The notes under the pieces: model-generated | Database searches by the model: none | The model's input: only the letters and a program-made list of their open reading frames with translations | What the model was told of the DNA's origin: nothing | In this document: in pieces, positions 8,560 to 54,815 of the stretch | How positions within the stretch are numbered: the first letter of the stretch is position 1 | Layout of the letters: each line of letters begins with the position of its first letter | Source of the DNA: Hyunsoonleella jejuensis | GTDB lineage: Bacteria > Bacteroidota > Bacteroidia > Flavobacteriales > Flavobacteriaceae | Length of the DNA: 64,000 bases | Direction: 5' to 3' | Assembly: GCF_900111025.1 (NCBI RefSeq) | Contig: NZ_FOFN01000003.1 | Coordinates: forward strand, 248,001 to 312,000 | Position numbers and translations under genes: made by a program

Positions 8560-11500
8560 ATGAATCGTAGTCAAATGCTCAATAACAAAATCATAAGCTT
8601 ATCAGGCAAAACCATTTTTGTGGTGTTAATGCTTAGTTTGTTTGTGTCAACCTTACAGGCTCAAAACTCGTCATTAGAACAAAATTTCCATAATCCACCT
8701 GCATCAGCAAAACCACAAACTATTTGGTTTTGGATCAACGGAAATGTTACAAAAAAGGGTATAACTGCCGATTTAGAAGCCATGAAAAATGTAGGCATTC
8801 AAGGGGCTATTCTTTTTAATGTGAGTTTGGCAAATCCTGAAGGTGTGGCGCCTTATTTAAGTCCAGAGTGGTTAGAACTTTTTAACTATGCTGGATTGGA
8901 AGCACAACGCTTGGAGCTCGACCTGGGTTTTCATAATGGGGCTGGTTGGTCGTCATCTGGAGGGCCTTCAATTACGCCAGAATACGCTATGCAAGAACTG
9001 GTTTATAAAGAAACGATACACCAGGGTGCTACAAAATTTAATGATAAGTTAGAACAACCTGAAACCAAATTGGGATTCTATAAGGACATTGCTATACTAG
9101 CTTTTCCAAAACCCAAGAGTAATGTGCGTATTGATGAATTAGAAATAAAAACCCTTTCTCATAAAGTTCGTAGTCATTTAAACCCTGATGATAAACCTAT
9201 TTCTGATTTGGCAGTAGTTAAAAAACGCGATATTATTGATTTAACATCGAAGTTGAACAATGATGGTTTTTTAGAATGGGATGCACCTGCAGGAGATTGG
9301 GTTATTTTAAGAATTGGACATACACCAACAGGTGAAATGAATCGTTTTCCAAGTGATGGTGGTCGTGGTTTAGAATGTGATAAAATGAATAAACAAGCGG
9401 TTGATGTGTTTTGGGATGGTAGCATAAAGCCCATACTAAAAAAGTTAGACACGCTAATTGGTACTACTGTAAAAAGATGTCATATTGATAGTTATGAAGT
9501 GGGTACTACAAATTGGACTTCCAATTTCGCTGAAGCATTCAAAACACTTCGTTCTTATGATTGTCGTTCATATTTGCCAACATTGGCGGGATATTATGTA
9601 GAAAGTGGCGAAGAAACCGAGCGGTTTCTTTGGGATTTCCGTCGTACCATAGGGGATTTAATTGCTGAAAATTATTACGGGCGTTTTGCTGAACTCAGTC
9701 ATAAAAACAACATGCTACTTTCTATAGAACCATATTGGGGACCTTTTGATAATATGCAAATTGGAGAAACCGCAGATATGGTAATGTCTGAGTTTTGGAG
9801 CGGAAGTCTTGCTTTTTTTGACTCCCCTAAATTTGTGGCTTCTATTGCCAAATTAAATGGAAACCCGATTGCTGAGGCGGAGTCTTTTACAGGAATGGGT
9901 GGTTGGGATCAGCATCCTGGTTTACTCAAAGCTATGGGCGATTTGGCATGGGCGCAAGGGATCAATCGTTTTGTTTTTCATAGTTATGTACATCAACCTT
10001 GGGACGTAGGTCCTGGGTTGACGTTACAGGTTTTTGGCACCGACTTTAACCGTTTAAATACCTGGTGGAATCAAGGTAAGCCATTTTTAGATTATATCAG
10101 TAGAGGTCAGTTTTTATTACAACAAGGGACCTCAGTAGCTGATGTATTGGTGTTTACAGGAGAAGCATCTCCCAATGACGCCCTTTTAATGCCAGAAATA
10201 AAAGCCTTAGGATATGATTATGACGTAATAGGGTCAAACAAAATAAATTCATTAACGGTAAAGGATGGTTTAGTGTGTACATCAGTTGGTGAAAAGTATC
10301 AAGCATTGGTGTTACCTTCAAACGAATGGATGACACCAGAAACGCTTGCTAAAATTCAAGAACTGGCTGAAAATGGAGCTTTAGTTATTGGCTCAAAACC
10401 TAACAAATCTCCAAGTCTTAAAAAGTATTCTGAATTTGATGAAAGCGTCGAGCAAATGGCAGATAGATTATGGGATAAAGGACTCATAAAAATGCATTCA
10501 ATTGTTGATGTATTGAAGAATGGAACTTTGCCTCCTGACTTTTCAATTGAAGGAGGACGTCATGAATCGGTAGATTTTATTCACAGAAAAACAGAAGATA
10601 CAGACATTTATTTTGTAGTAAACTCCAAGAAAGAACGTCGAGAGTTAGCCTGTCGTTTTCGAGTAGCAGGAAAACAACCAGAGCTTTGGAATGCAGAAAC
10701 CGGAGAAATAACTAAGGCCACCATATGGCAGGAAAATGATGATGGTACTACAACAGTGTCAATTTCGTTTGATCCAGAAGGTTCTGTATTTGTCGTTTTT
10801 AGAAATCCGATTATTTCAAATCAACATATTGTAAATGCTGAAATGAAAATGAAAAAACCATTTATAACGCCTCTTTCAAACTTGAAAATTATTAAAGCAG
10901 AATATGGCACATTTTTACCGGATGGTTTGGTTGATGTAACAGAAGTAGTTGCAAACAGGATTCAAAATAATGGATTAAATATACACGCGACAAGAGAACT
11001 TTCTAAAGGTGATCCAGCGCCTGGGTACAAAAAGGAATTACGCATTCAATATAAAATAGGAGCAGCGGTTTTCGAAAAAAACGCCATGGAAAAAGAATGG
11101 TTAGAAATTGACGCTCCTGGAAGCGGTAAACTAGAAATCTTGAATGCTGTCTTTGGTAAATTTGCAAGAGGTGTTGATGGCATCCCACCAAACAAACCAG
11201 TTTTTGATGTAACGGAAAAAGTAAAATCAATGGTGGCTTCAGGAGTCTATGAAATACCAGTAAATGATAGTTTCCTTGAAGGAAAAGAGATCAAGACAAA
11301 GAAAGCCTTACGCACAGTTTATGTTACCAATAATGAGGAGAAAATTGTTACGGTTTCCAATGGTGGTATATTAAAATTGACCCAAACTACATCAGAACCA
11401 AAATTAGTATTTGAAGATGATAAAGTGAATTTGGTTACGCCCTTTGCTGGTGAAATGATCTATGAATCTTCAAACGGAAAAACCAAAACGTTAAAAGTAA

Positions 11501-17307: not shown

Positions 17308-17841
17308 ATGCAAGCATTATTAGGAGTAATATTTCATTCGTTAGGGGGAATAGCCTCGGGTAGTTTTTATATGCCGTTTAACAAAGTTAAAGGTTGGGCA
17401 TGGGAAAGTTATTGGATAGTTGGTGGTTTAATGTCTTGGTTAATAGTACCTCCTATAGCTGCCTATTTGACCGTTCCGGGATTTTTGGACATTATTGCTG
17501 CTGGTTCTAGCACTATTGTAGGTTTTACCTTTTTAATGGGTTTACTTTGGGGTGTAGGTGGTTTAACTTATGGACTAGGAGTGCGCTATTTAGGAATGTC
17601 TTTGGGTAATTCAGTTGTGCTTGGTTTTTGTGCTGCATTTGGTGCTATTGTGCCTTCAATATATTATAATTTTAATCCAATGGAAGGCAAAGTGTCTTTG
17701 ACAGATATGTTAAGCTCTTCTGGAGGTCAATTGGTTTTATTAGGTGTTTTGGTATGTCTTTTGGGTATTGGGCTCTCTGGTAGAGCAGGTATGTTGAAAG
17801 AAAAAAACTTTCTGACGAAGAAAAAAAGGCAAGTGTTTTAG
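17308..17841 (+). CDS. rhaT: L-rhamnose:proton symporter RhaT, N-terminal half (frameshifted)
   Basis: The 177-residue product matches the first half of RhaT: FHSLGGIASGSFYMPF, KVKGWAWESYW, LWGVGGLTYGLGVRYLGMS and LVLLGVLVCLLGIG. It has about six hydrophobic membrane segments. Translation runs into a stop at 17839 shortly after the seven-A run at 17801-17807. The missing half is present in the -1 frame just downstream, and the joined product would be about 350 residues, the usual RhaT length. RhaT imports L-rhamnose across the inner membrane, which fits the six rhamnosidases in the locus. No copy of the PUL promoter motif was found in the 146 bp upstream. Whether the gene works depends on the frameshift discussed at 17802. 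Confidence 0.85.
   Translation: MQALLGVIFHSLGGIASGSFYMPFNKVKGWAWESYWIVGGLMSWLIVPPIAAYLTVPGFLDIIAAGSSTIVGFTFLMGLLWGVGGLTYGLGVRYLGMSLGNSVVLGFCAAFGAIVPSIYYNFNPMEGKVSLTDMLSSSGGQLVLLGVLVCLLGIGLSGRAGMLKEKNFLTKKKRQVF
17802..17808 (+). other. A-AAA-AAC heptamer at the rhaT frameshift
   Basis: In the zero frame the codons are GAA-AAA-AAC, so bases 17802-17808 form A-AAA-AAC, which has the X-XXY-YYZ form of a -1 ribosomal slippery site. A -1 slip here continues as LSDEEKKASVLEFNIVKGL and joins both halves of RhaT. A one-base loss in the A run (eight to seven) or polymerase slippage would explain the same picture. The sequence alone cannot decide between them. Confidence 0.5.
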
Positions 17842-18359
17842 AATTTAATATTGTAAAAGGTTTAATCGTTGCCGTGCTTTCAGGAATTTTAAGTTCTTTT
17901 TTTAGTTTTGGTATTGAATCAGGAAAGCCTTTAGCAGATGCTGCAGTGGTGGCAGGTTATGATCATTTATTTGCTAATAATGTAACCTTTGTGGTTATTC
18001 TATGGGGAGGTTTGGTAACCAATTTGGTTTGGACAACCATACTAAGTATTAAAAATAAAGCGTATAAAGATTTTACAAATAAAAGTACACCAATCCTTAA
18101 CAACATACTATTTTCATCATTGGCAGGAACCATTTGGTTTCTTCAGTTCTTCTTTTATGGTATGGGCGAAAGTAAATTAGGTAGTGGTGCAAGTTCATGG
18201 ATTTTACACATGTCCACCATTATTTTAACGGCCAATTTTTGGGGCATTTATCGTAAAGAATGGTATGGGGTGGCTAGTAAAACTAAATGGACAATTACGG
18301 CTGGTATCACCATAATTATGTTATCTGTAGTTCTTGTTGGTATCGGAAATTCATTGTAA
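17808..18359 (+). CDS. rhaT: L-rhamnose:proton symporter RhaT, C-terminal half (-1 frame)
   Basis: Read from 17808 in the -1 frame, this part begins LSDEEKKASVLEFNIVKGL and continues with typical RhaT features: GILSSFFSFGIESGKP, the loop around the YKDFTNK segment, SLAGTIWFLQFFFYGMG, SSWILHMSTIIL and a last membrane segment ending GIGNSL. Taken alone it could only start at the GTG at 17874 (161 residues), inside what should be a membrane segment, which is unlikely as a real start. It carries about four or five membrane helices and has no sign of decay other than the frame break: codon use and conserved residues look intact. This favours either a sequencing slip, a very recent mutation or programmed recoding. 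Confidence 0.8.
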   Translation, partial: LSDEEKKASVLEFNIVKGLIVAVLSGILSSFFSFGIESGKPLADAAVVAGYDHLFANNVTFVVILWGGLVTNLVWTTILSIKNKAYKDFTNKSTPILNNILFSSLAGTIWFLQFFFYGMGESKLGSGASSWILHMSTIILTANFWGIYRKEWYGVASKTKWTITAGITIIMLSVVLVGIGNSL

Positions 18360-19923: not shown

Positions 19924-19938
19924 ACTAAATTGGTACAA

Positions 19939-21162
19939 ATGAAAACAAACCGTCGAAATTTTATAAAAGGTATCTCTAGTGCTGGGTTATTCGGTTTATC
20001 CTATCCTTTGCTATCATCATGTATCAGTGATAAAGACGTATTGACAGCAAAAATCACGAATATTGAATTTTATCAATACAATATCAATATTCCGCGCTAT
20101 TTTTCTTTTGGTACGTGGTTAAATCGTCAGCACATATTCATGAAAATTAGTGCAGGTGATTATTATGGTTGGTCTGAAATTCCAGCTTCAAGAAATACTC
20201 CAGATGTCGATTTAAGTACATGGGTAAATTATGTGAAACAATTTAAAGGCTTAAGTGTTTTAGAAGCGCAAAAGTTATTACAATCGCAACAAGTAAAAGG
20301 TTCAAAAATTTCTTTTAAATATTTAGAGTTGATGGACATGGGCTTGCTCGATTTGGCTGGTCGCTTGCAACACATACCTTCGATAGAATTATTGGGTTTA
20401 CATCAAAAGGAAGCAGTTCCAGGCTTGTATTGTATTCTAAATAAAGATGAAGACAAAGTGCGTGAAGAAGCTCAAAAAAGTTTGAAGCAAAACCTTGGGC
20501 ACCACATGAAATTCAAAATGTATGGCGATTTGGAGGTTGATTTAAAGTTACTACGAATTATTCGCGAGGTTTTAGGTGATGATGCTGTTGTGATTTCAGA
20601 TGTCAATAAAGGTTATAAAAAATGGAAATCATTAGAAGAATTGGCTGAGATTTTGAATACTTTCAAAGAAAACGGACTTAACGCCATTGAAGATCCCGCA
20701 CCTTTAAGCACAGACCAATGGATTGCACTTCAAAAAATGACGGGAGATTTAGATTTAATTCCAGATGCACCCATGCGTCCTGCTTGGTTAGGTGTTGATA
20801 AATTACAAAAAGGTATGGGGAGAATTATCAACCTACATCCTTCTACCATGGGAAGTTTTATTCACACAGCCTTATTGTCAAAAAAAGTAAAAGATATCGA
20901 TGCGAAAGTAATGATTGGTGACGATAGTTTAGTAGGGCCTGCATGTACTGCGTGGCAACAAATAGCCATTGGCGCAGGAGCTACTTGGGTTGAAGCTATA
21001 GAAAAGGAAGAAGATTCTAAAGAATATTTAGGGTGTGTTTTAAAATCTGTAACCACCAAACGAAATGATGGCTATTATATAATGGATTCAAAGCCTGGTT
21101 TTGGTTTAGAGTTAGATGAAAAAAGATTAAGAACTATATGTTCGCGTTTTATCGAAGTTTAG
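19939..21162 (+). CDS. enolase-superfamily (mandelate racemase / sugar-acid dehydratase-like) protein with export signal
   Basis: The ATG at 19939 is preferred over the TTG at 19930. The 407 residues begin with a twin-arginine-type signal (NRRNFIKG) followed by LLSSC, so the protein is exported, perhaps as a Tat lipoprotein. The rest has the enolase-superfamily layout: a capping domain to about residue 155, then a barrel with the general base motif K191-F-K193, metal ligands D221 in SDVNKG and E251 in IEDPAP, and a late GDDSLVG loop. Family members abstract the proton alpha to a carboxylate, as in L-rhamnonate or L-fuconate dehydratases. Such enzymes are normally cytosolic. In this locus it could act on uronic acid residues or free aldonic acids in the periplasm; the reaction is not determined. 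Confidence 0.75.
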   Translation: MKTNRRNFIKGISSAGLFGLSYPLLSSCISDKDVLTAKITNIEFYQYNINIPRYFSFGTWLNRQHIFMKISAGDYYGWSEIPASRNTPDVDLSTWVNYVKQFKGLSVLEAQKLLQSQQVKGSKISFKYLELMDMGLLDLAGRLQHIPSIELLGLHQKEAVPGLYCILNKDEDKVREEAQKSLKQNLGHHMKFKMYGDLEVDLKLLRIIREVLGDDAVVISDVNKGYKKWKSLEELAEILNTFKENGLNAIEDPAPLSTDQWIALQKMTGDLDLIPDAPMRPAWLGVDKLQKGMGRIINLHPSTMGSFIHTALLSKKVKDIDAKVMIGDDSLVGPACTAWQQIAIGAGATWVEAIEKEEDSKEYLGCVLKSVTTKRNDGYYIMDSKPGFGLELDEKRLRTICSRFIEV

Positions 21163-35103: not shown

Positions 35104-38100
35104 ATGAAACTAAAAACTAAACAAAATGTGACACCTAATTTTAAGAGAATGGGACTATTGGCTATTTTCTTGTTCTTAGGTGTAGCAATGACCTTTGCTC
35201 AGACGGTGCAAGGTACAGTAACTGCAGATGGTCAGCCACTTCCTGGTGCCACTGTTGTTGTAAAAGGAAGTTCCACAGGAACAAGTACAGATTTTGATGG
35301 TAATTATTCCATTAATGCAAGCGCAGACAACACACTTGTATTTTCTTATGTAGGGTATTCTACAAAAGAAGTTGTAGTGGGAAATCAAACTACAATTAAC
35401 GTAACTCTGGAACAAGACAATGCTCTGGACGAAGTTGTTGTAATTGGTTATGGTACACAAAGAAAATCGGATTTAACAGGTTCCGTATCTTCCATAAGTT
35501 CAGAAGATATTACAGCATTACCAGTTCCTAGGGTAGACCAAGCACTACAGGGTAGAGCATCTGGTGTACAGGTAACACAAGTTAATGGTGCACCTGGAGC
35601 AGGAACGGTTATTAGAGTAAGGGGTGGTAACTCGATTACAGGTAGTAACGAGCCACTTTGGGTAATTGATGGTATAATTGTAGGTACTAACTTTAACTTA
35701 AATAACATTAATAGTAATGACATCCAATCCATTGAGATTTTAAAGGATGCTTCTTCTATTGCTATTTATGGTGCTAGAGGTGCAAATGGGGTAGTGCTGG
35801 TTACTACAAAAAATGGTGCTGGTGCTGGTACGGGTAAGCCACAAATAAGTGTAAACCTATATACCAGTTCTCAAATGTTGCCAGAATTACCAGATAGATT
35901 AAACCAAAGAGAGCAAATAGAATACAACAATGAGAGCGCTCGTTTTAGGTCAGCTGCCGAACCATTTCCAGATGACCCATCTACATATCCTGACAATGAT
36001 TGGGTAGATTTAGTATTGGGTACAGCACCAATTTATAATGCAGATGTTTCCATTTCTGGAGCTACTGATAATGTAAACTACTATACCTCAATGAATTATT
36101 TTAATCAAGAAGGTATCGTAAAAAGTTCTGGACTTGAAAAATACATTTTTAGAACAAATTTGGATCTTAAAATAAGTGATAAAGTAAAAGCAGGGTTTAG
36201 ATTAAATTATTCTAGATTAGAGCAAGATAATGCACTAGCGAGTTTTAGTCAGGCTGCTTTTGGTATTGTTCGCACGCAGCCCGCTTTTAATGACGATGGT
36301 TCTTTTAATGGTTTTGATGATATTGTTGGGTCGCCATTCAACAATCCTTTAGCTGCTATAGCCTTAAATACAAATGAAACGTTTACTAATAATTTACTAG
36401 CAACGGTATATTTGGAGTATAGTCCAGCACCGAATTGGATTATTCGCTCAACATTTAGTCCAGAATTTAATAATACTAAGCAAAATAGATTTAATTCAAG
36501 TCAATTACCTGGTTTACTGGCAATAGGAGATACTGGACAAGGAAGCGCCAGCGTTCGCACGGTAAATTCTAATGGGTGGAACAATGAAAATACCATACAA
36601 TACCAATCAGATATTGACGAAGATCATAGTATTACAGCTCTTATAGGTACTTCTTTTCAGAAAGTATCTACAGAAATAGCGGAGGCCGAAGCTTTTGGTA
36701 TTACCAGTGATGCTACAGGTTTTAATAATTTAAATAATTCAGACCCTACCAGATCAGTTGTAAGTAGTGATTTTTCTGGGTTTCAATTCGCATCTTTTTT
36801 CGGAAGATTAAACTATTCATATAAAGATAAATATTTATTAACTTTAGTAGGCAGAACAGATGGTAGTTCTCGTTTTGCAGAAGGTAACAAATATGCGTTT
36901 TTCCCTTCAATAGCTGGTGCTTGGAAAATATCGGAGGAAGATTTCATGCAAGATCAAGAGATATTTCAAGACTTAAAATTAAGAGCGAGTTGGGGTAAAT
37001 CTGGTAATCAAGCCATTGACCCATATAGTACTCTTGGACTTTTAACAGGGGCAAATACAACACTTAACGGCGTTGAAGTACCTGGTTTAACTTTAGGTAG
37101 GCCTTCCAACCCTAATTTACAGTGGGAGACTACCAGTTCCTTTGATATTGCGTTAGAAGCTTCCTTATTTGGAGGTAGAGTATTTACAGAATTTAACTAC
37201 TATTATAAAGAAACCGAAGATTTATTATTAGATGTTACAATTCCAAGGCAGACCGGTTTTAATAGCCAATTACAAAACATAGGCGCTTTAAAAAATTCAG
37301 GATGGGAGCTTTTAGTGAATTCAACAAATGTGAGTACAGCTAACTTTAATTGGAATTCTACTGTAACATTATCGGCCAACAAGAATGAAATATTAGATCT
37401 TGGTGGGGTAGATTTTATTGATATAGTAGCAGATCCTATTTTGGGCTCAGGTAACACGCGTTTAATTGTGGGAGAATCTGTTCCTGCTTTTACGGGAGTT
37501 AGATACCTAGGGACGTGGAAAAGTCAAGCAGAGATTGATGCATCAGGTAGAACTGACCCACAGGTTGTAGGTGGATCGCATTTTGAGGATTTAAATGGAG
37601 ATGGTATAGCTTCAACCCAAGATGCTGTGGTATTAGGTAGCCCATTTCCAGATTTAATTTTTGGGGTTGAAAACAATTTTTCATACAAGAATTGGGATTT
37701 TTCTTTCTACTTCCAAGGAACTCAAGGTAATGAAGTGTATAATTTATCAATGAGAAATAATTATTTCAACCGAGGTGAGACTGTTAAATTTGGAGATTTA
37801 CGTAACCGTTGGACGGTTGATAACCCAACATCTAATATTCCTAGAGCAGGAGCGGATTCTGTAACGAATACAATACCTAACTCTGAATATGTTGAAGATG
37901 GATCGCACATTCGACTAAAAAATATAAGATTGGCATATAATTTCCAACCAGATAAAATGGGATTAAATGGCATTAAAAATGCAACCGTTTATGTTTCAGG
38001 AACTAATTTATTATTATTTTCTAAAACGAGATTGATAGATCCGGAAGCAAGTAATTTTGGTCGTGATAATATTTTACAAGGATATATTAGTGCTCAATAT

Positions 38101-38145
38101 CCTAACCCAAGAGTTTTAACACTTGGTTTAAATGTAACTTTTTAA
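35104..38145 (+). CDS. susC: SusC-type TonB-dependent outer-membrane oligosaccharide importer
   Basis: The 1013-residue protein has a signal peptide ending near TFAQ. It starts with a carboxypeptidase-regulatory-like domain (QGTVTADGQPLPGATV to about residue 105), followed by a TonB-box-like segment DEVVVIGYGT, a plug domain with VDQALQGRASGVQV, IRVRGGNS and EILKDASSIAIYGARGANGV, and a 22-strand barrel that ends in the usual aromatic C-terminus (LGLNVTF). With SusD it forms the lidded importer that brings glycan fragments released at the surface into the periplasm. The gene is followed by susD after 10 bp. It is the only SusC in the window, which suggests that the whole 64 kb serves one main substrate. 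Confidence 0.97.
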   Translation: MKLKTKQNVTPNFKRMGLLAIFLFLGVAMTFAQTVQGTVTADGQPLPGATVVVKGSSTGTSTDFDGNYSINASADNTLVFSYVGYSTKEVVVGNQTTINVTLEQDNALDEVVVIGYGTQRKSDLTGSVSSISSEDITALPVPRVDQALQGRASGVQVTQVNGAPGAGTVIRVRGGNSITGSNEPLWVIDGIIVGTNFNLNNINSNDIQSIEILKDASSIAIYGARGANGVVLVTTKNGAGAGTGKPQISVNLYTSSQMLPELPDRLNQREQIEYNNESARFRSAAEPFPDDPSTYPDNDWVDLVLGTAPIYNADVSISGATDNVNYYTSMNYFNQEGIVKSSGLEKYIFRTNLDLKISDKVKAGFRLNYSRLEQDNALASFSQAAFGIVRTQPAFNDDGSFNGFDDIVGSPFNNPLAAIALNTNETFTNNLLATVYLEYSPAPNWIIRSTFSPEFNNTKQNRFNSSQLPGLLAIGDTGQGSASVRTVNSNGWNNENTIQYQSDIDEDHSITALIGTSFQKVSTEIAEAEAFGITSDATGFNNLNNSDPTRSVVSSDFSGFQFASFFGRLNYSYKDKYLLTLVGRTDGSSRFAEGNKYAFFPSIAGAWKISEEDFMQDQEIFQDLKLRASWGKSGNQAIDPYSTLGLLTGANTTLNGVEVPGLTLGRPSNPNLQWETTSSFDIALEASLFGGRVFTEFNYYYKETEDLLLDVTIPRQTGFNSQLQNIGALKNSGWELLVNSTNVSTANFNWNSTVTLSANKNEILDLGGVDFIDIVADPILGSGNTRLIVGESVPAFTGVRYLGTWKSQAEIDASGRTDPQVVGGSHFEDLNGDGIASTQDAVVLGSPFPDLIFGVENNFSYKNWDFSFYFQGTQGNEVYNLSMRNNYFNRGETVKFGDLRNRWTVDNPTSNIPRAGADSVTNTIPNSEYVEDGSHIRLKNIRLAYNFQPDKMGLNGIKNATVYVSGTNLLLFSKTRLIDPEASNFGRDNILQGYISAQYPNPRVLTLGLNVTF

Positions 38146-38155
38146 AAAAAATAAT

Positions 38156-39736
38156 ATGAAAACAAAACACATAATTTTATACGTCTTTATGGTTTTCGCA
38201 TGTTTTAGTTGCGAGAGCTTTTTAGAAGAAGACCCAAAAGCGCTTATTTCTCCAGAAACCTTTTTCGCTTCAGAGAATGACGCAAGACAAGCCGTTCAAG
38301 GCATGTACGCTATATTAAAAAATAACTCTTTATATGGGCAGGTAGGTCTAGATCATTTTTATGATAATGGGTGTGATATTATTGAGCCTAACCGTGCTGC
38401 AAATTTTGTAGAGCCTATAGGTAATTACTCGTTGAATGAAGCAATTGCTGATATATCTGTTCAAAAAATGAGTGTTTCAGATACCTGGAAAGACCTTTAT
38501 AGAACGATACTAAATGCTAATGTAATTATAGATAGAGTAACAGATAATGAAGCTGTAGGGGATGCAGATGTTCGCACTGATATCATAGCAGATGCAAGAT
38601 TTATTAGAGGGTTATGCTATTGGCATATTACTAATCTTTGGGGTGATGCGCCTTACTACACAGAAGTGCTTACTCTAGAAGAAATTAGTGCACTAGGAAG
38701 AACAGATGAGGCTACTATTATAACTGGAGTGTTGGAAGACCTGCAGTTTGCCCAAGATAATTTACAAACAGCCTATACCGGCGATCAAAGTGGTAGAGCT
38801 TCAAAATGGGCCGCAGCTATTGTTATTGCTAAAATTTACATGAAGCAACAACAATGGCAGCAAGGTTTAGATAAATGTTTGGAAATCATTAATCAATCGC
38901 CTCACAGATTATTAGATACATATAATGAAGTGTTTGATCAATTCAATGAATACAATGATGAAATTATTTGGTCTTTAGATTTCGCTAGAGATATTAATAG
39001 TCAATTTGACCCAGCATTCCCTGGCAGATCATTTGCTGGTAATAACAACTGGCGTCCAAGTATGTTTAATCCACGTTTAAGAGATGAACCAGCCAATACA
39101 AATGAGAGAAGCGCCTTAGCTGATGCTTTGGCGGCTAGAGGCGAAGCTTTTAATGGAACGGGGCTACAAGTGGCTTCTAAAGACTTTGCTGAAAAGTTTC
39201 CAATGAATGATTTAAGAAGAGAGCTTAATATAGTAGATAACTACTTAGGGTTTGACTTAAATTTTCCATACATGGCAAAATTCTGGAATTTAGAATTGGA
39301 TAGATCTCCAAGATTTAACCACTCAGATAACAGAATGGTGTTTCGTTTGGCAGATGTGCATTTAATGGCTGCAGAATGTGAAAACGAGCGCCCAGGTGGT
39401 AATCCTAACACAGCTTTTGAATATATTAGAAAAATTAGAGAGCGCGCTTTCGCAACAGTAGCAGAGGCTGAGGCAATATTAGGATTAAGTCAACAAGAGT
39501 TTAGAGAGGCTATTTATGACGAGCGCAAATGGGAATTAGCGGCAGAAATGCACAGAAGATATGATTTAATTAGATGGGGTATTTTACTAGATGTTGTTCA
39601 AAACCTTGAATTTAGATTCTGGAAACCAAACGAAAATATTAGACCATGGCACGTTAAACTCCCTATTCCTTTGCAGGAGTTAGAGAATAATCCAGCCTTA
39701 CTAGAGTCTGACCCAACAAATAACGGATATAGATAG
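38156..39736 (+). CDS. susD: SusD/RagB-type surface glycan-binding lipoprotein
   Basis: The 526-residue protein has the lipobox FSC (Cys19), followed by ESFLEEDP, an acidic stretch consistent with a surface-export signal. TPR-like helices are present (NDARQAVQGMYAIL, RFIRGLCYWHITNLWGDAPYY, NTAFEYIRKIRERA), and the SusD-typical C-terminal part ERKWELAAEMHRRYDLIRWG is recognisable. SusD proteins cap the SusC barrel and bind the incoming oligosaccharide. A strong terminator follows the stop codon, so susC and susD form a two-gene unit. Confidence 0.96.
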   Translation: MKTKHIILYVFMVFACFSCESFLEEDPKALISPETFFASENDARQAVQGMYAILKNNSLYGQVGLDHFYDNGCDIIEPNRAANFVEPIGNYSLNEAIADISVQKMSVSDTWKDLYRTILNANVIIDRVTDNEAVGDADVRTDIIADARFIRGLCYWHITNLWGDAPYYTEVLTLEEISALGRTDEATIITGVLEDLQFAQDNLQTAYTGDQSGRASKWAAAIVIAKIYMKQQQWQQGLDKCLEIINQSPHRLLDTYNEVFDQFNEYNDEIIWSLDFARDINSQFDPAFPGRSFAGNNNWRPSMFNPRLRDEPANTNERSALADALAARGEAFNGTGLQVASKDFAEKFPMNDLRRELNIVDNYLGFDLNFPYMAKFWNLELDRSPRFNHSDNRMVFRLADVHLMAAECENERPGGNPNTAFEYIRKIRERAFATVAEAEAILGLSQQEFREAIYDERKWELAAEMHRRYDLIRWGILLDVVQNLEFRFWKPNENIRPWHVKLPIPLQELENNPALLESDPTNNGYR

Positions 39737-46229: not shown

Positions 46230-47549
46230 ATGTCTAAAACAACAAAAAATCAGTTTAAAACAAGTTCAAACGTATCACGAAGAGCGTTTATAAAGAACAC
46301 TTCTCTTGTAGTGGGAGGTATTACTATCATTCCTCGCCATGTTTTAGGACAAGGTTTTACAGCGCCTAGCGATAAAATAAATTTAGGGTTTATTGGCTTA
46401 GGAAAACAAGGAGGTATTTTGGCCAATTTTTTTGTTTCAAATACCGATGTGCAAATAGTAGCTGGGGCCGAGGTGTGGCAATCCAAACAAGAGTGGTTTA
46501 AAAATGTTGTAAACGATTTTTACGCCAAAAAAAGAAATATTAGTAACTATAATGGTGTAAATACATATACCAATTATCAAGATCTTATCTTAAGAAAAGA
46601 CATTGATGCAGTGGTAATAGCTACTCCAGACCACTGGCATGCCATACAAGCTATTGATGCTATGAAAGCAGGTAAAGATGTGTATTGCGAAAAACCCATG
46701 ACCAATACCATTAAAGAAGGAAGGGATATGGTAAATGCGGTTAAAGAGAATAAAACCGTATTACAAGTGGGGAGTATGCAGCGCTCTTGGGGGCGTTTTA
46801 TAAAAGCCAAAGATATTGTAAGAAGTGGGCAGCTAGGTAAAATAAAAAAGGTTATTGTTAGTGTAGGAGACCCTGCAAAATCTTATGATTTGCCAGAAGA
46901 AAATCTTCCCAATGGCGTAGATTGGAATTTGTGGTGTGGGCCAGCACCTTTATTACCTTACAATAAACTTATTGCGCCAGAGTTTGTTAAGTCTTACCCG
47001 AAATGGAGAGATTATAAAGAAACCGCTGGGGGTATTCTTTCAGACTGGGGAGCACATATGTTTGATATTGTCCAATGGTGCCTTGGTATGGATAAATCAG
47101 GTCCTGTTACATACATACCACCCCAAGACCCTAAAGCAGTTAGAGGCTTAAAGATGTATTACGAAAATGGAATAGAAATGGTTCATGAAGATTTTGGTCG
47201 TGGATGGGGCGTACGCTTTATAGGGGAATTTGGTTCTATGGATGTAAGTAGAAAATATTTAGAGACAACACCATCAAATATTCTGTCCTCAAATCAAGCC
47301 AATTTAGAAATACTTCTTAAAGACAGAGGAAATCATTATCAAGATTGGATTTCTGGTATAAAATCAAGAAATCAACCTATTTGCGATGTTGAAACTGGAC
47401 ATCGATCCGCGAGTATTTGTAACATAGCCAATATTGCATATGAACTAAACGAAACTTTACATTGGAATCCTGTAAAGGAAAAATTTAAAAATAATCGATT
47501 GGCAAACAAAGCGAGAAAAAGAAAACCAAGAGAATATAACTCACGTTAA
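46230..47549 (+). CDS. Tat-exported Gfo/Idh/MocA-family oxidoreductase
   Basis: The 439-residue protein begins with a twin-arginine signal (VSRRAFIKNTSL) and continues with a Rossmann fold: NLGFIGLGKQGG nucleotide-binding motif, VVIATPDHWHA and the family's EKP motif in DVYCEKPMTN, followed by the C-terminal substrate domain with WSDWGAHMFDIVQW-like residues around 275-290. Tat export implies that it folds with bound NAD(P) before transport, as in GH109 and related redox-active glycosidases. It could oxidise a sugar hydroxyl at C3 as the first step of an oxidative-elimination cleavage that the DUF1080 protein at 28687 would complete. This link is inference. Confidence 0.85.
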   Translation: MSKTTKNQFKTSSNVSRRAFIKNTSLVVGGITIIPRHVLGQGFTAPSDKINLGFIGLGKQGGILANFFVSNTDVQIVAGAEVWQSKQEWFKNVVNDFYAKKRNISNYNGVNTYTNYQDLILRKDIDAVVIATPDHWHAIQAIDAMKAGKDVYCEKPMTNTIKEGRDMVNAVKENKTVLQVGSMQRSWGRFIKAKDIVRSGQLGKIKKVIVSVGDPAKSYDLPEENLPNGVDWNLWCGPAPLLPYNKLIAPEFVKSYPKWRDYKETAGGILSDWGAHMFDIVQWCLGMDKSGPVTYIPPQDPKAVRGLKMYYENGIEMVHEDFGRGWGVRFIGEFGSMDVSRKYLETTPSNILSSNQANLEILLKDRGNHYQDWISGIKSRNQPICDVETGHRSASICNIANIAYELNETLHWNPVKEKFKNNRLANKARKRKPREYNSR

Positions 47550-47703: not shown

Positions 47704-49896
47704 ATGAATAAAAAATTTACTCTTTTCAATGTATACCGTATCGTTACATTTGGGCTACTATTTTTTGCATTCTCAAATAGAATGAGTGCCCAAGTTATTC
47801 TAGAGAATGAAATTAAAATTACAGACTTTGGGTTGCATTTTAATGGTTCTAAAGTGGCAAGTGGAGCGTCAAATACAGGAGATAATGCTGCATATGATTA
47901 TTTTTTTGGTCGTAATATTTCCGCCCATGGTGATTGTATAAAAACCTATGGAGACTATGTTTTTATGACCTGGTATCGTGGTCCAAAAGCAGATCGCCAT
48001 GTGATGCTAACCCGATATAATACCAAAACGGGAACTATGGCTACTATAGAATTTCCGCACAGACATACGGGATACCAAAATAGATACTGGATTGGTGAAT
48101 CGCACAACACGATTGCAGTAGGTGTAAGTCCTCTAGATGGTACGATTCATTTGTTATACGATATGCACGCTTACAGTGCCTCAAGGCCCTCTGATGGAAG
48201 TTTGGCAAACGATTATTTTAGATACTCCTATTCTCTAAAAAATGCAGCTTCATTACCTGATGCTGATTTTACTTTGGACAAATTCGTTCAAAATGGCACT
48301 GGAGGTTATAAGCATTTAAGAATGCCGGGAACGGCGGCTAATTCAGAGTTCTTGTCATTAACTTATCCAAGATTCTTCCAAAATGACGGTGGAGACCTTT
48401 TTATGCTCATGCGAGAAGGTGGAAATAATAATGGTATGTATAAGTTTATAAAATACGATGCTAGTACTGGAGATTGGGGTAACTTCATAGATTTTAATAG
48501 GTTAAATGCAAAAAGCCAACCTGGAATCGACTATAATTGGGGGCTTTATGGAGATATGAAATATGTAAACGGCAAGTTACGAATTGGTTTTCAGCGTAGG
48601 TCTGCTAATAATGAGGATAAATATCAGTACCAAAACGGTGTTTATTATGCCTATTCTGACGACCAAAGTGGTGCAACTGGCTGGAAAAACCATAAAGGAG
48701 AAGAATTTTCAGTTCCATTATGGGATGCAGATGTTATAAAGGTTATGGAGCCAGGGGATTATGTGCAAACTACCCAGAAAGATAAAGTCTATATCGTTAG
48801 TGGATTTGATTGGACGGTAACCGCAAATGAAGATGTGCATATTATAAGTCAAGTAAGAGATCTTGAAAATAATGTTACCAAAAGATTGCATACCTATAAA
48901 CCTTCTGGCGCTGCAGATTTCATTACATCAGAAGATTTTCCCGGGGGTGCTGCTCTTTATACTTCAGGAAACGATGTGTTTATTATTGGATTAACAAGTA
49001 GTAAACGTATTTTTATAGAAAAGGCAGAAGGAGGAACCAATAACTTTACAAGGGTTTATGAAGCCACTTCTGGCAGAACTTTTGATCATGGTGTGGTGCA
49101 TATTGATAACGGTAAGGTTTACTATTATTTAATGGAAAACAAATCAGGCAGTGCACAGCCATTATATTTGCAAATCATAGATTTAGGAATTGTACCTCAA
49201 GACCCATTAGCAGCAAATAATTTTACCATACAGGCAGTTGGAGAAACCTGTGCTTCCAAGAACAACGGCAAGCTTATTATTACGGGCAATGCTACCCATG
49301 ATTATGCAACGACAATCAATGGAGTAGCTTATGATTTTACAAAGGAATTGACTATCGAGGATTTAACTCCAGGCACATATGATTTTTGCATTGACGTGGT
49401 AGGGAAAAACTATAGCCATTGCTATGAGGTTACTATCGAGGGTGGTGTAAGTATGACTGGTAAAATAGAGATTGTTAAGAAATCAGCTAGTGTATCCGTC
49501 ACCTCAGGCACAGGGCCCTATAAGGTTTACAAAAACGGTGTGGAGCTTTTTGAGACCCATCAAACCAATTTTACAATAGCGGTAGACCATGGTGATGAGA
49601 TTCGGGTAGAGAGCAAAGAAGCATGCCAAGGCCTAATGGCAAAGACCATCAATTTACTAGAAGATATAAAAGCTTACCCTAACCCTACAAGCGGTTTATT
49701 TGAATTGTATATTCCGAATACGATAGAAGCAATAGAATTAGAAGTGTATAATATTCATTCACAATTAATAACTTCTAAAGTTTATACGGTACAAGGAGGA
49801 AAGGTGCAATTGAATTTAGAGAATAAACCAAAAGGCATCTATTTTGTAAAAGTAAAATCAGAAAAACCAGTATTTATAAAATTAATAAAAAAATAA
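47704..49896 (+). CDS. beta-propeller polysaccharide lyase, PL24/PL25 (ulvan lyase)-like, T9SS-secreted
   Basis: The 730-residue protein has a signal peptide ending near RMSAQ. Residues 35-500 read as a BNR-type beta-propeller with GDYVFMTWYRG, RHVMLTRYN, GESHNTIAVGVSPLDG and LLYDMHAY. H134 and H155, 21 residues apart, lie in the stretch that I associate with the catalytic histidines of the PL24/PL25 ulvan lyases (recall, not checked). PL37 or an uncharacterised propeller are alternatives. Two Ig-like repeats follow (about 505-645), and the last 70 residues form a T9SS sorting domain (AYPNPTSGLFELYI, KGIYFVKVKSEK). It should act outside the cell as an endo-lyase that starts depolymerisation. 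The FN3 lipoprotein gene starts one base after its stop. Confidence 0.65.
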   Translation: MNKKFTLFNVYRIVTFGLLFFAFSNRMSAQVILENEIKITDFGLHFNGSKVASGASNTGDNAAYDYFFGRNISAHGDCIKTYGDYVFMTWYRGPKADRHVMLTRYNTKTGTMATIEFPHRHTGYQNRYWIGESHNTIAVGVSPLDGTIHLLYDMHAYSASRPSDGSLANDYFRYSYSLKNAASLPDADFTLDKFVQNGTGGYKHLRMPGTAANSEFLSLTYPRFFQNDGGDLFMLMREGGNNNGMYKFIKYDASTGDWGNFIDFNRLNAKSQPGIDYNWGLYGDMKYVNGKLRIGFQRRSANNEDKYQYQNGVYYAYSDDQSGATGWKNHKGEEFSVPLWDADVIKVMEPGDYVQTTQKDKVYIVSGFDWTVTANEDVHIISQVRDLENNVTKRLHTYKPSGAADFITSEDFPGGAALYTSGNDVFIIGLTSSKRIFIEKAEGGTNNFTRVYEATSGRTFDHGVVHIDNGKVYYYLMENKSGSAQPLYLQIIDLGIVPQDPLAANNFTIQAVGETCASKNNGKLIITGNATHDYATTINGVAYDFTKELTIEDLTPGTYDFCIDVVGKNYSHCYEVTIEGGVSMTGKIEIVKKSASVSVTSGTGPYKVYKNGVELFETHQTNFTIAVDHGDEIRVESKEACQGLMAKTINLLEDIKAYPNPTSGLFELYIPNTIEAIELEVYNIHSQLITSKVYTVQGGKVQLNLENKPKGIYFVKVKSEKPVFIKLIKK

Positions 49897-50797: not shown

Positions 50798-52966
50798 ATG
50801 AGAAAAGAACGCTTCCATACCTATATTGTTATCTGCTTATTCCAATGTCTTTTATTTTTTGCCTGTAATAAGAAGGAGAACCTTGTAAATATCGTCGTAC
50901 TATCTGAGGCACCACAGGTTTCATTTGCTTTACAAGATTTAGAATTAGCCTTGGGTTCGTTGTATAAACTTGTTGATGCAGACCTTGTAGGTAAAGCAGA
51001 TATAATTTTGTCGATTAAAGAAATTGACACATTGTTATCAGAAGGTTTTAAAATTGATAATGTTAATAACAGAATAGAGGTTATTGGGCACGATGAAGCT
51101 GGTTTAATGTATGGCACACTAGAACTCGCAGAACAAATTAAATTGTATGGTATTAAGGGAGTGAAAAGCATCATTCGGAATCCCTATATGGAAATGCGTG
51201 GGCCTAAATTTAATATACCTTTAGATGTACGAACTCCAAGTTATTCTGATGTTAGTGATGCCGCTCAACATAATATTCCACACATGTGGGACTTTAGTTT
51301 CTGGAAAGATTACATAGATACTATGGCGCGTTACCGCTATAATTATATTTCACTTTGGAATTTGCATCCGTTCCCTTCTCTAGTAAAGGTTCCGGGATAT
51401 GAAGGTATTGCATTAAATGATGTGCAGCGTTCCACTGTAAAATGGAAAGAAAATTATAATTTGATGGCTATTGGTTTTGATGCACCAGAAATTCTTGAAA
51501 ACCCCGAAATTGTAAAAACTATTTCCATTGAAGAAAAAATCGAATTTTGGAAGAAGGTAATGGCCTATGGGAAGACCCGAAATATTGATTTTCATTTCAT
51601 TACATGGAATATTTTTGATTATGGCACCCAAGGAAAATATGGTATAACCGATGATAGGGATAATGAAATAACGACCGATTATTTTAGAAAAAGTGTAAAA
51701 GAACTATTTGTAACCTACCCTGATTTGGCAGGAATAGGATTAACCACGGGAGAAAACATGAAAGGTGCCAACCATAAAGAACGCGAAGCATGGGCTTATA
51801 ATACCTATGCCTTAGGTATATTAGATGCAGCCAAAGAAATGCCAAAGCGACAATTTAAGTTTATACACAGGCAACACCAATCTGGAGCCAGAGAAATTGC
51901 TGAAAAATTTAAGGATGTTGTTGAGGCAGAAAATGTAGAATTCTTATTTTGTTTTAAATACGCCAAAGCACATGTGTATAGTGCAACCCAACAGCCATTT
52001 CATGAAAATGCTAATTATGTAGCGCAAATTAAGGGCATGAAAACCTTGTGGGGTTTAAGAAATGACGATACTTTTTATTTTAGGTGGGGCGCTCCTGATT
52101 TTACAAGAGAATTTATAAACAATCTGCCTTATGATGTGGCAAAAGGTATTTATTTTGGTTCAGACCAATGGATATGGGGACGTGATTTTTTAACCAAGAC
52201 ACCTGAAACTCCAAATCAAATTGAGGTTTCAAAACATTGGTATCAATGGTTGTTGTGGGGTAGATTAAGTTATGATCCAACAATATCTAATGATCGTTTT
52301 CGAGATTTATTATCAAGTAGATTTCCTGGAATTGATGCTAATAAACTATTTTCTGCATGGCAAAATGCGTCTATGGTGTATCCTCTTACAACAGGTTTTC
52401 ATTGGGGATCTCTAGATTTTCAATGGTATATTGAAGGGTGTAAAAGTAGACCGAAACAGGCAGAAAACGAAACTGGTTTTCACGATGTTAATCGGTTTAT
52501 TACGTTAGGTGTACACCCAAAATCTGGAAATCAATCTATTCCAGACTATGTTGATATGATTTTAGAGAATAAAACTACAACTCTAACAACACCATTAAAT
52601 GTGTCTAAAAGCCTTAAAGATATTACAGACAAGGCATTATTTGATGTTGAAGGTTTTATTGTTGATTCAGATAAAGAACTACAGTTTACAGTAAACGATA
52701 TTAAAACAGTTTCATTTTTAGGAAAGTACTATGCTCGTAAAATTGAAGGTGCAACCTATTTGGCATTATATAGAAAATTAAACGAAAAAGAATACCAACA
52801 ATTAGCAATTAAATCTTTAGAAGCAGCATTGGTATTTTGGAAGAAATATATAAACCAAGCCATGTTACAAAACCACAACCCGCTATGGACGAATAGAGTA
52901 GGTATTGTGGATTGGAAACAAATAACTGAGTGGGTAAAACAAGATATTGAAATAGCGAAACAATAA
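50798..52966 (+). CDS. glycoside hydrolase of uncertain family, alpha-glucuronidase (GH67/GH115/GH20)-like, lipoprotein
   Basis: The 722-residue product has the lipobox FFAC near residue 23. Residues 30-120 form the alpha/beta domain that precedes GH20, GH67 and GH84 barrels (ALQDLELALG, GFKIDNVNNRIEVIGHDEAGLMYG, in pieces). The barrel follows (FWKDYIDTMARYRYNYISLW, IDFHFITWNIFD, AGIGLTTGENM, FIHRQHQSGA), and the C-terminal part is helical. A carboxylate-bearing TTGEN loop and several His/Arg residues suggest that it acts on an acidic sugar. I cannot place it in a defined GH family with confidence. It is followed after 9 bp by the acetolactate-decarboxylase-like gene, so both probably work on the same uronate-containing fragment. 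Confidence 0.6.
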   Translation: MRKERFHTYIVICLFQCLLFFACNKKENLVNIVVLSEAPQVSFALQDLELALGSLYKLVDADLVGKADIILSIKEIDTLLSEGFKIDNVNNRIEVIGHDEAGLMYGTLELAEQIKLYGIKGVKSIIRNPYMEMRGPKFNIPLDVRTPSYSDVSDAAQHNIPHMWDFSFWKDYIDTMARYRYNYISLWNLHPFPSLVKVPGYEGIALNDVQRSTVKWKENYNLMAIGFDAPEILENPEIVKTISIEEKIEFWKKVMAYGKTRNIDFHFITWNIFDYGTQGKYGITDDRDNEITTDYFRKSVKELFVTYPDLAGIGLTTGENMKGANHKEREAWAYNTYALGILDAAKEMPKRQFKFIHRQHQSGAREIAEKFKDVVEAENVEFLFCFKYAKAHVYSATQQPFHENANYVAQIKGMKTLWGLRNDDTFYFRWGAPDFTREFINNLPYDVAKGIYFGSDQWIWGRDFLTKTPETPNQIEVSKHWYQWLLWGRLSYDPTISNDRFRDLLSSRFPGIDANKLFSAWQNASMVYPLTTGFHWGSLDFQWYIEGCKSRPKQAENETGFHDVNRFITLGVHPKSGNQSIPDYVDMILENKTTTLTTPLNVSKSLKDITDKALFDVEGFIVDSDKELQFTVNDIKTVSFLGKYYARKIEGATYLALYRKLNEKEYQQLAIKSLEAALVFWKKYINQAMLQNHNPLWTNRVGIVDWKQITEWVKQDIEIAKQ

Positions 52967-52975
52967 ATCTATATT

Positions 52976-53785
52976 ATGAAACACCTAAACGTAGCCTTAT
53001 GTATCATTTTTTTGATAATAGCAACTTCATGTAAGCAAGAACAAAAAGATATTGTAAGCCTCCAAGAAGAAAATAATACTATTGTTCAGAATAAACCCGA
53101 TGTATTTTACCAATATTCGATTTGGTTTGCCTTTGTAAATAAAGTTTTTGATGGTGATTTAAAAGTTTTGGAACTCAAAAGCAAAGGCGATATTGGTTTA
53201 GGCTCTTTTGATTATCTCGATGGCGAATTGGTCATGTTAGATGGTGTACCATATCGCATAAGAGAAAATGGAGAAATAAGTGTTGGACAAGATAAGGACG
53301 AAATTGTCTATGCTGATGCCACTTTTTTTCACGAGGAAGGTGTTTTTAAAATAAAGGGACCAGTAGATTATCCTACCTTTCAAAACAGGCTAAATACCAA
53401 AATGGAATCCGAGCATTATTTTTATGCGTACAGAGTTCCTGTGAAGCTCGATTACATAAAACTTGGTGGTGTACCCAAGGTTGAAAAACCATTTACAGAT
53501 GGGCTTGACGTGCTGTTACCCATACGCCCTGTTTTTGAAGCTGAAAACATCAGTGGTACCTTAGTTGGTTTTTATTGTCCAGAATATATTGGTAATATTA
53601 ACGCCTATGGTCATCATTTTCATTTTATCTCTGATGACCGCAAGTGGGGAGGACATGTTATGGAATTCAAAACCAAGCATGATATAGAGGTGCCTTGGGA
53701 TCAAAAAACAAGCTATGCGTTTGACCTTCCTAAAAATAAAACGTTTGAAAACGTAAAATTGGATAGTGAGTTTCAGTATAACTAA
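52976..53785 (+). CDS. acetolactate-decarboxylase-fold lipoprotein (possible oligosaccharide dehydratase or decarboxylase)
   Basis: The 269-residue protein has the lipobox ATSC (Cys19), which is unexpected for this fold. From residue 44 it follows alpha-acetolactate decarboxylase closely: YQYSIWFAFVNKVFDGDL, GDIGLGSFDYLDGELVMLDG, GTLVGFYCPEY and the zinc motif HHFHFISDDRKWGGH with H214, H216 and H227; the acidic E84 in LDGE is also present. The metal site therefore looks intact. Acetolactate itself is a cytosolic metabolite, so an exported copy in a PUL should have another substrate. From the literature I recall an ulvan oligosaccharide dehydratase (Formosa P29_PDnc) that may be related, but I cannot verify this. 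It directly follows the glucuronidase-like gene. Confidence 0.8.
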   Translation: MKHLNVALCIIFLIIATSCKQEQKDIVSLQEENNTIVQNKPDVFYQYSIWFAFVNKVFDGDLKVLELKSKGDIGLGSFDYLDGELVMLDGVPYRIRENGEISVGQDKDEIVYADATFFHEEGVFKIKGPVDYPTFQNRLNTKMESEHYFYAYRVPVKLDYIKLGGVPKVEKPFTDGLDVLLPIRPVFEAENISGTLVGFYCPEYIGNINAYGHHFHFISDDRKWGGHVMEFKTKHDIEVPWDQKTSYAFDLPKNKTFENVKLDSEFQYN

Positions 53786-54018
53786 GAGTCATTGTACAGA
53801 CTCAGTTATTCTTATGCATGAATGATGGGGTAGGTTGTTCTGAGTGTAAATTCGATTTCTATGGCTCTTTATCTGATTTAATGTTGAGACATTAAGAGAA
53901 GTTCTCAAAAAGGAGATAAGCTAAAGAAGTTCTCGCTGATTAATGGCTTTTTATATAGGTATAAACGAAGGTACTGTGTGGATTATAATTAGTCGAATAA
54001 TTATCCGTAAATCGAGAT

Positions 54019-54030
54019 ACAGCAGGATAG
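54019..54030 (+). promoter_or_regulatory. PUL motif upstream of the jelly-roll lyase gene at 54081
   Basis: TACAGCAGGATA points at the start at 54081, 50 bp downstream. The position 20 nt further reads AATCTTGC, a poor -7 box. A short hairpin (AAAAAGCA / TGCTTTTT, 54044-54063) lies between the motif and the gene. The motif supports 54081 as the true start. Confidence 0.45.
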
Positions 54031-54080
54031 TTTTTCTTCTAAAAAAAGCAATCTTGCTTTTTCCATTTAAAACATTTCTT

Positions 54081-54815
54081 ATGAAAAAATACATGGTTTA
54101 TCTTTTTAGTTGTTTTGTTCTGTTTAACTGTTCTGGAGGTGATAGTAATAATGACGTTATGGAAGATGAACAGCAACAAGAAGAAGAGCAGGTAGATGTA
54201 ATTCCTTTAATTCCCAATGAAGGTATCCCCAGTCCGTTTAATTTATTTACTGTTATTGATGCTGATGTCGAGCGAAAAGATTTTAACAAAGTATCAAAAT
54301 GGTATGAAGAAGCAGCAAATAAACAGGTCTTTAAACTTTTTATTGGTGACGAGTTTAATGGAGAAAGAAAACATGCAAGAACAGAAGCAGGTCAAGGTTT
54401 AAAATGGAAACAAGGTTCTGAGTGGCATACTTTTGAAGCGGCTATGAAACCAAGTGGAAAACTTGATGAAACCTATACTATTGCACAACTTTTTGCGGGA
54501 TGTTGTGGTCCTCAACTTAGAGTTGAAGTGAAGTCAAGTGGAAGAATACATGTTGGTTCAAGAGCTAATGGAAATTTTCGTATTTCTACAGATGAAGATT
54601 GGGCAAATGGAGTAAAAAGTTTCAAAATTAAAATCAGAAGTAATGGTAAAGACATGGAAGTCTATTTTAATGATGAATTGAAGTTTACTGGGATTTCCGA
54701 AGAAAGCACTTTAGAAAATACAGCTGCACTTTATCATTTTAGGTGGGGCGTGTATTCAAATAATAAGATGACAAAGAATTTAAGCAACACCGTCACAAAT
54801 ATTACAAGAGAGTAA
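54081..54815 (+). CDS. jelly-roll (PL7-superfamily) lyase-like surface lipoprotein
   Basis: The frame is open from 53943, but 54081 gives the lipoprotein signal MKKYMVYLFSCFVLFNC (Cys17). A very acidic spacer (SGGDSNNDVMEDEQQQEEE) then points to surface display. The 160-residue catalytic-type domain has RTEAG (R100-E102), YTIAQLFAG with Q136 and F138, and YHFRWGVYSN, the order RxE, QxH, YxKxGxY known from PL7, PL20 and PL28 enzymes. In place of the catalytic His of the second motif there is Phe138, so the enzyme either uses another base or is a binding protein. It lies between the decarboxylase-like gene and the GH78 pair. A glucuronan-type or ulvan-type substrate is a guess from context. Confidence 0.55.
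   Translation: MKKYMVYLFSCFVLFNCSGGDSNNDVMEDEQQQEEEQVDVIPLIPNEGIPSPFNLFTVIDADVERKDFNKVSKWYEEAANKQVFKLFIGDEFNGERKHARTEAGQGLKWKQGSEWHTFEAAMKPSGKLDETYTIAQLFAGCCGPQLRVEVKSSGRIHVGSRANGNFRISTDEDWANGVKSFKIKIRSNGKDMEVYFNDELKFTGISEESTLENTAALYHFRWGVYSNNKMTKNLSNTVTNITRE

Follow-up and report, generated by a model that had tools for sequence, protein, structure and literature searches.

A predicted exported acetolactate decarboxylase-fold protein with an altered active site in a Hyunsoonleella jejuensis PUL: a candidate zinc enzyme for carboxylated sugars

The gene at 52976-53785 of a 64,000-nucleotide stretch of the Hyunsoonleella jejuensis genome (hereafter the window; contig NZ_FOFN01000003.1, positions 248,001 to 312,000) encodes a predicted lipoprotein with the fold of acetolactate decarboxylase (ALDC) that, judging from its sequence, is probably not a metabolic ALDC. 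The first-pass annotation had leaned the same way, and that view is strengthened by the placement of the protein in a separate clade (support 100/97), by its altered active site, and by the uronidase-fold gene and sulfatases nearby. The reading we prefer, held tentatively and at somewhat less than an even chance, is that the protein may be an exported, membrane-anchored zinc enzyme in which the ALDC fold was repurposed for a carboxylated sugar; any single reaction assigned to the clade enzyme would be less probable than this reading as a whole. Family models name, or nearly name, the clade proteins ALDC, and a likely new exported step of sugar-acid breakdown would thereby be hidden. The recurrent gene pair with a GH138-like partner suggests a concrete substrate class, and across the family an Arg is strictly exchanged between two sites, a clear case of active-site rearrangement that can be put to the test. 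Features are listed in Table 1.

Table 1. Coordinates of the ALDC-fold gene, its active-site positions and selected neighbors in the window
Feature	Coordinates	Strand	Basis or remark
TonB receptor and SusD pair of the PUL	35104..39736	+	
GFO/IDH/MocA oxidoreductase, twin-Arg signal by eye	46230..47549	+	
BNR_4 protein with secretion-system tail	47704..49896	+	
GH138-like uronidase-fold gene, conserved partner	50798..52966	+	Stop 9 bases before 52976-53785
ALDC-fold lipoprotein gene	52976..53785	+	269 aa; ORF, Pfam, PDB and model matches
Signal peptide, lipobox ATSC, Cys19	52976..53032	+	Lipobox pattern
LDGE motif, residues 81-84; acid E84 (Glu65 of 4bt2)	53216..53227	+	Alignment
K162-L-G164-G165; Gly164 at Arg145 of 4bt2	53459..53470	+	Alignment
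R184, invariant in clade; Gln in ALDCs (residue 164 of 4bt2)	53525..53527	+	Alignment
H214 and H216, Zn ligands (His194/His196 of 4bt2)	53615..53623	+	Alignment
H227, Zn ligand (His207 of 4bt2)	53654..53656	+	Alignment
C-terminal F-Q-Y; chain stops short of Glu253 position	53771..53779	+	Alignment
PL7-like (PF08787) protein, next gene after 52976-53785	53943..54815	+	

A Pfam search of the protein returned AAL_decarboxy (PF03306) as the sole family (200 bits; cut-off 25; residues 45-263), and the PDB sequence search gave seven matches, all ALDCs except 1xv2 (named similar to ALDC), with 5xne, the Bacillus subtilis ALDC, matched at E 3.5e-37. An AF2 model (mean pLDDT 90.9) was superposed on 4bt2, which we take to be the Brevibacillus brevis acetolactate decarboxylase, over 229 residues (Z 33.5, rmsd 1.6, 29% identity), in agreement with the ALDC fold that the first-pass annotation had proposed. 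The next fold after ALDC was PTD012 (1xcr; Z 15.2, 11% identity, rmsd 3.4), and other families at a comparable score were not found among the matches listed in the structure comparison (VIA-align), a result that excludes nothing. The lipoprotein signal named in the first-pass annotation corresponds to a predicted lipobox at Cys19. The protein is the single match in its own genome at E ≤0.001, and dN/dS of 0.07 to 0.14 against four relatives indicates purifying selection on the gene. Relatives are sparse: among genomes of the family a match at E 1e-10 was found in 17 of 397 (at least 47% identity in 10 of those), and sampling of the phylum gave one in 24 of 395 genomes (at least 49% identity in 2).

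For comparison across the family, a scan of genome contigs with an alignment of 14 relatives gave 72 loci; it returned only places matching two peptide patterns and is therefore not exhaustive. Loci with at least 44% identity (L022-L052, L064 and L092; n = 33) were taken as the clade and the other 39, of which 11 are Bacteroidota by title, as the comparison set; both sets were used with short loci included and amount to ∼641 and 690 kb, respectively. Four of the 39 comparison loci had no usable ORF and one (L061) gave two rows, leaving 36 comparison rows. On the clade side, L039 is counted as a locus and not as a protein, such that 32 proteins plus that of the window make up the 33 clade proteins; this locus (Polaribacter glomeratus, 10001-10792) matches the clade gene over its length and has no intact ORF of at least 200 aa. 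The sole clade locus titled outside Bacteroidota, L032 (9965-10804), comes from a Pirellulaceae metagenome-assembled genome and is a clade member at 52% identity without a lipobox, reflecting either transfer or a binning error.

The first-pass annotation had proposed placing the protein in a phylogeny with true ALDCs. In a tree of 76 rows, the clade was monophyletic and apart from all others, including the solved ALDCs 4bt2 and 5xne, with support of 100/97. A single origin of all proteins in which the Arg is shifted (see below) was not rejected (p-AU 0.477) on a 47-row tree comprising 16 of the 32 clade proteins, the window protein and part of the others. The lipobox pattern was matched in 29 of 33 clade rows including the window protein, with an earlier Cys in a few, and a lipobox was visible by eye in three more (L042, L046 and L052). 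By a pattern test it also occurred in 5 of 36 comparison ALDC rows, and export was rejected as proof of a new function on these grounds; B. brevis AldB is itself an exported ALDC.

In ALDC, the substrate is bound on zinc, Glu65, Arg145 and Glu253 are used, and the reaction passes through an enediolate intermediate. The numbering of Glu65, Arg145, His194, His196 and His207 was checked against the 4bt2 sequence; Arg145 and a C-terminal Glu, taken to be Glu253, are the residues of 4bt2 that we assume to be catalytic. All three His ligands were kept in 33/33 clade rows and 36/36 comparison rows, and E84 in 33/33 clade proteins. Position 164, in contrast, was Gly in every clade protein (33/33), whereas 35 of 36 comparison rows had Arg there; position 184 was Arg throughout the clade (33/33), and the comparison rows had Gln with one exception (35/36). 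The sole comparison row with both Gly164 and Arg184 was L053, which in the tree is the closest relative outside the clade. The C-terminal tail also differed. With 17 or 19 residues past P252, the clade chains stop short of the tail Glu position. That Glu stands 20 to 24 residues after P252 in 27 of the 33 comparison rows whose tail is long enough, and in 0/33 clade rows, which terminate in F-Q-Y instead (F and Y in 33/33, Q in 32/33). Thus, the "intact zinc site" of the first-pass annotation stands as far as the three His residues and the acid are concerned, but the equivalents of Arg145 and Glu253 are missing and, judged as that of an ALDC from the alignment, the active site is not intact.

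Positions 164 and 184 were also read in 28 further genes, 21 of them newly aligned from the phylum sample and seven (L011-L017) aligned before the Arg idea arose. The residue pairs were R/Q in 21, R/M in one, A/R in four and G/R in two, so that in every protein of the alignment set and of the further genes Arg is present at one of these positions and absent from the other. An Arg that is always kept would fit a substrate bearing a carboxylate. It could also fit an enzyme that still decarboxylates acetolactate, or a similar small alpha-hydroxy-beta-keto acid, outside the cytoplasm and lies in the PUL by chance, the Arg shift being neutral or tuning stereochemistry. The kept zinc ligands and E84 are in line with this, as are the existence of exported ALDCs (the 5/36 comparison rows with a lipobox) and the score of the window protein with the NCBIfam ALDC equivalog model TIGR01252, which at 171.6 bits falls just below the cut-off of 180.65; among three other clade members, L042 (206.8) and L052 (201.5) pass and L033 (176.1) fails. 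Acetolactate synthase genes are likewise present in 14/14 genomes with a clade gene. However, in the H. jejuensis genome the acetolactate synthase match above cut-off lies on another contig (C2), the residues corresponding to Arg145 and Glu253 are missing from 33/33 clade proteins, and GH138-like and sulfatase neighbors recur around the clade genes (see below), and we consider such a decarboxylase unlikely. The absence of two catalytic residues might alternatively mean that catalysis was lost and that the protein is a metal- or ligand-binding lipoprotein; with metal ligands, E84 and the replacement Arg each in 33/33 clade proteins, and with the gene under purifying selection, this is very improbable.

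A second lineage of ALDC-fold proteins (L013-L016 and L110-L113) combines Ala164 with Arg184, has no tail Glu and carries a His-rich segment after the lipobox. No CAZyme neighbors were seen for the lineage of L013-L016, which is surrounded by small-molecule genes; around L110 these are genes for a carboxymuconolactone decarboxylase, an aldehyde dehydrogenase and a nitroreductase. Since the Arg shift occurs here among small-molecule genes, a glycan substrate does not follow from the shift by itself. ALDC domains were also seen in longer proteins. In L011 (525 aa) and L119 (524 aa) the domain is preceded by an N-terminal part of ∼290 aa without a Pfam match at E 0.01, and in L063 (1763-3349), from a Blautia metagenome-assembled genome, it is followed by a LysM domain.

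The gene directly ahead of 52976-53785, described as glucuronidase-like in the first-pass annotation, proved to be a GH138/GH67-fold gene; its homology to GH138 extends over the full length (profile E 7.5e-44), and its first-ranked fold match is 6hze. A GH138-like neighbor was found in 18 of 33 clade loci versus 0 of 39 comparison loci, a zero that partly reflects taxonomy because only 11 of the 39 are Bacteroidota. The GH138-like gene may directly precede the clade gene, lie downstream of it, be encoded on the opposite strand, or be separated from it by Sde182-type genes; it is missing in 15/33 clade loci, and at L026-L029 (Seonamhaeicola and a relative) several neighbors are housekeeping genes. 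The 14 genomes with a clade gene hold 0 to 4 GH138-like matches each, and in nine of them one lies within 5 kb of the clade gene, where 0.08 genomes would be expected if genes were evenly spread and independent, assumptions that PUL clustering and shared ancestry both break, so that we rely on the count alone. Distances were counted from 26 of 30 GH138-like places, since each of the other four belongs to an open frame that is represented among the 26. Since 11 of the 14 genomes also supply clade loci, the neighbor counts by locus and by genome are not independent.

The PUL setting recognized in the first-pass annotation is evident from a TonB/SusD pair and CAZymes clustered with 52976-53785, with rhamnosidases and sulfatases nearby. 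Within the window, the PUL comprises three GH106, one GH59, three GH78, two GH43, and one each of GH2, GH3 and GH5 genes, four sulfatases, a PF05426 protein, RhaM, the GFO/IDH and BNR_4 proteins, and the GH138/GH67-fold gene. On the same contig, a stretch beginning 48 kb before the window carries GH3, GH88/105, sulfatase, GH106, PL28 ulvan lyase and further GH78-type genes, and together with the PUL of the window it would form one ulvan-degrading island. Two ORFs in different frames, 17308-17841 and 17874-18359, correspond to the first and second half of the rhamnose transporter RhaT (a frameshift or an assembly error). Inside the PUL, 19930-21162 encodes a member of the enolase superfamily (MR_MLE) in which a twin-Arg type signal is visible by eye.

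Sulfatases were neighbors in 16 of 33 clade loci versus 1 of 39 comparison loci, while other associations were sparser. GFO-type genes were found in the window and in five of 33 clade loci (L022, L042, L052, and directly upstream in L033 and L038, where the gene immediately before the clade gene is a 67% identical copy of the GFO/IDH gene 46230-47549), and PF06439-type genes in 2/33 clade loci and within 10 kb in at least three of the 14 genomes (G145, G152 and G227). GFO/IDH-family (PF01408) genes number 7 to 45 per genome and the PF06439 family is likewise abundant genome-wide; a strong link of the clade to 3-keto-sugar enzymes is not established. Some clade genes have lactonase- or SMP-30-type genes in their vicinity (5/33 loci with a lactonase query). 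A zinc hydrolase activity has reportedly been proposed for PTD012, the next fold match of the model, and the clade enzyme could correspondingly be a zinc hydrolase acting as a lactonase or on sugar esters. We regard this as decidedly unlikely, given the low identity and larger rmsd of the PTD012 match, the confinement of the lactonase linkage to few loci, and the always-kept Arg, which would suggest a carboxylate and not a lactone.

The first-pass annotation had also suggested kinship with the ulvan oligosaccharide dehydratase of Formosa agariphila, and this did not hold. The dehydratase, P29_PDnc, is given as WP_038530528.1 in PMC8511951, which states that it was earlier reported as a broad-spectrum ulvan lyase, lists the variants D248N, E254Q, E255Q, D269N, D290N, R300E, K303I and Y306F, and reports that D248N and K303I lost activity, as did the Arg variant (printed R230E in that sentence). 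PMC6168547 describes CDF79930/BN863_22180, cloned as residues 15-622 and modeled as an (alpha/alpha)6 toroid plus a beta-sandwich domain; read together, the two papers appear to concern one protein. H. jejuensis has its own P29_PDnc ortholog (G000:C7:215022-216935, or L107:15022-16935, with the homology match at 215022-216902; 637 aa, no Pfam family), preceded by a PL28 lyase gene and carrying all eight probed residues in a pattern starting at residue 248 (Formosa numbering). Among the ORFs of L022-L093, this eight-residue spacing occurred only in L033 and L038, in 639-aa proteins. The full pattern (D248 to Y306) was absent from all six frames of the window, in which its D-R-K core occurs once, at 19042 inside a sulfatase, and blastp of the 52976-53785 protein against the H. 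jejuensis ortholog gave just 27- and 25-residue matches (E 0.092 and 1.9). With the ortholog a separate gene, both proteins present in L033 and L038, and no homology between them, the ALDC-fold protein is not a P29 dehydratase; its kinship with P29_PDnc, which is an unrelated protein of ∼620 aa with other catalytic residues, was rejected.

The same reaction might nonetheless be catalyzed from another fold, the protein being a uronate 4,5-dehydratase or lyase that makes unsaturated ends for GH105/GH88 enzymes. The uronidase-fold partner gene would suit this, enolate chemistry beside a carboxylate would be within reach of the fold, and five of the 14 genomes with a clade gene lack a P29 homolog. 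The other nine hold both genes, though, H. jejuensis already possesses an ortholog with every probed residue, and the two proteins share no sequence kinship. Neighbor genes are of little help to the idea of a clade enzyme creating unsaturated residues: GH88-type genes were found in just 3/33 clade loci (one query) and a GH88-family gene (PF07470) within 5 kb in 2/14 genomes (G229 and G248), a rarity that speaks against unsaturated ends being made, although these two genomes leave room for the dehydratase. On balance this alternative appears decidedly improbable. The loci L033 and L038 also contain GH88, PF05426, GFO/IDH and RhaM relatives, the P29 homolog, and a protein with an ulvan-lyase trefoil domain (typed on L033).

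If the protein is instead a zinc enzyme acting on a carboxylated sugar, the zinc would chelate vicinal oxygens of a uronate-derived sugar and R184 would hold the sugar carboxylate in a more open pocket. With zinc and Glu kept, the Arg placed at the start of a neighboring strand and the tail Glu removed, there would be room for a larger acid; in the AF2 model the strands span residues 149-164 and 186-201, and the nearness of R184 to the old Arg site, as read from their order, is that of a prediction. The substrate would be the uronate or keto-uronate end of an oligosaccharide, which fits the gene neighbors, and outside the cytoplasm the clade enzyme and its GH138-like partner would have this substrate, or the product, in common. 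A zinc-bound enediolate could then form as in ALDC, most likely as a keto-uronate loses CO2. Decarboxylation is the step closest to the parent ALDC chemistry; the reaction could alternatively be an elimination, an isomerization or a lactone hydrolysis. Against this reading speak the 15/33 clade loci lacking a GH138-like gene, a comparison set that is mostly not Bacteroidota, the few GFO-type neighbors, the two clade members that score above the equivalog cut-off, and the second lineage, with its Arg shift outside a CAZyme context. We know of no PUL cascade with a decarboxylation step. In the literature library searched, no paper joined acetolactate decarboxylase with ulvan, or with sulfatase and polysaccharide; combined with polysaccharide utilization, or with lipoprotein and Bacteroidetes, the term gave nothing relevant by title or abstract start, and combined with CAZyme nothing relevant by title or abstract start among the matches listed. 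It is possible, though we put it clearly below an even chance, that these proteins are the first carbohydrate-active ALDC-fold enzymes, forming a mostly Bacteroidota clade with an exchanged Arg, a lost tail Glu and a GH138-like partner that would act on uronates of ulvan-type and other acidic glycans by zinc-enediolate chemistry such as decarboxylation.

Compared with known systems, the protein shares with ALDC (PF03306, TIGR01252; 4bt2 and 5xne) the whole fold, the three His ligands and the equivalent of Glu65, but differs from 4bt2 in the changes of Arg145 to Gly and Gln164 to Arg, the absence of Glu253, its separate clade and its PUL context. PTD012 (C11orf54) resembles it as a zinc-containing fold with a clear structural match, yet is far more distant in identity and rmsd. 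P29_PDnc has in common with it an occurrence in ulvan PULs, where one locus can hold both genes, and differs in size, ancestry and catalytic residues, as the H. jejuensis genome with both illustrates. Lastly, the partner 50798-52966 is like the GH138 alpha-galacturonidase BPa0997 (6hze) in full-length homology and fold, whereas Ala389 aligns with E361, which the PDB entry names as catalytic in BPa0997. E319 is kept in 20/21 rows; with the FKY..A motif at the Ala389 site in 19 of 21 relatives, the reaction of the partner itself may also have changed.
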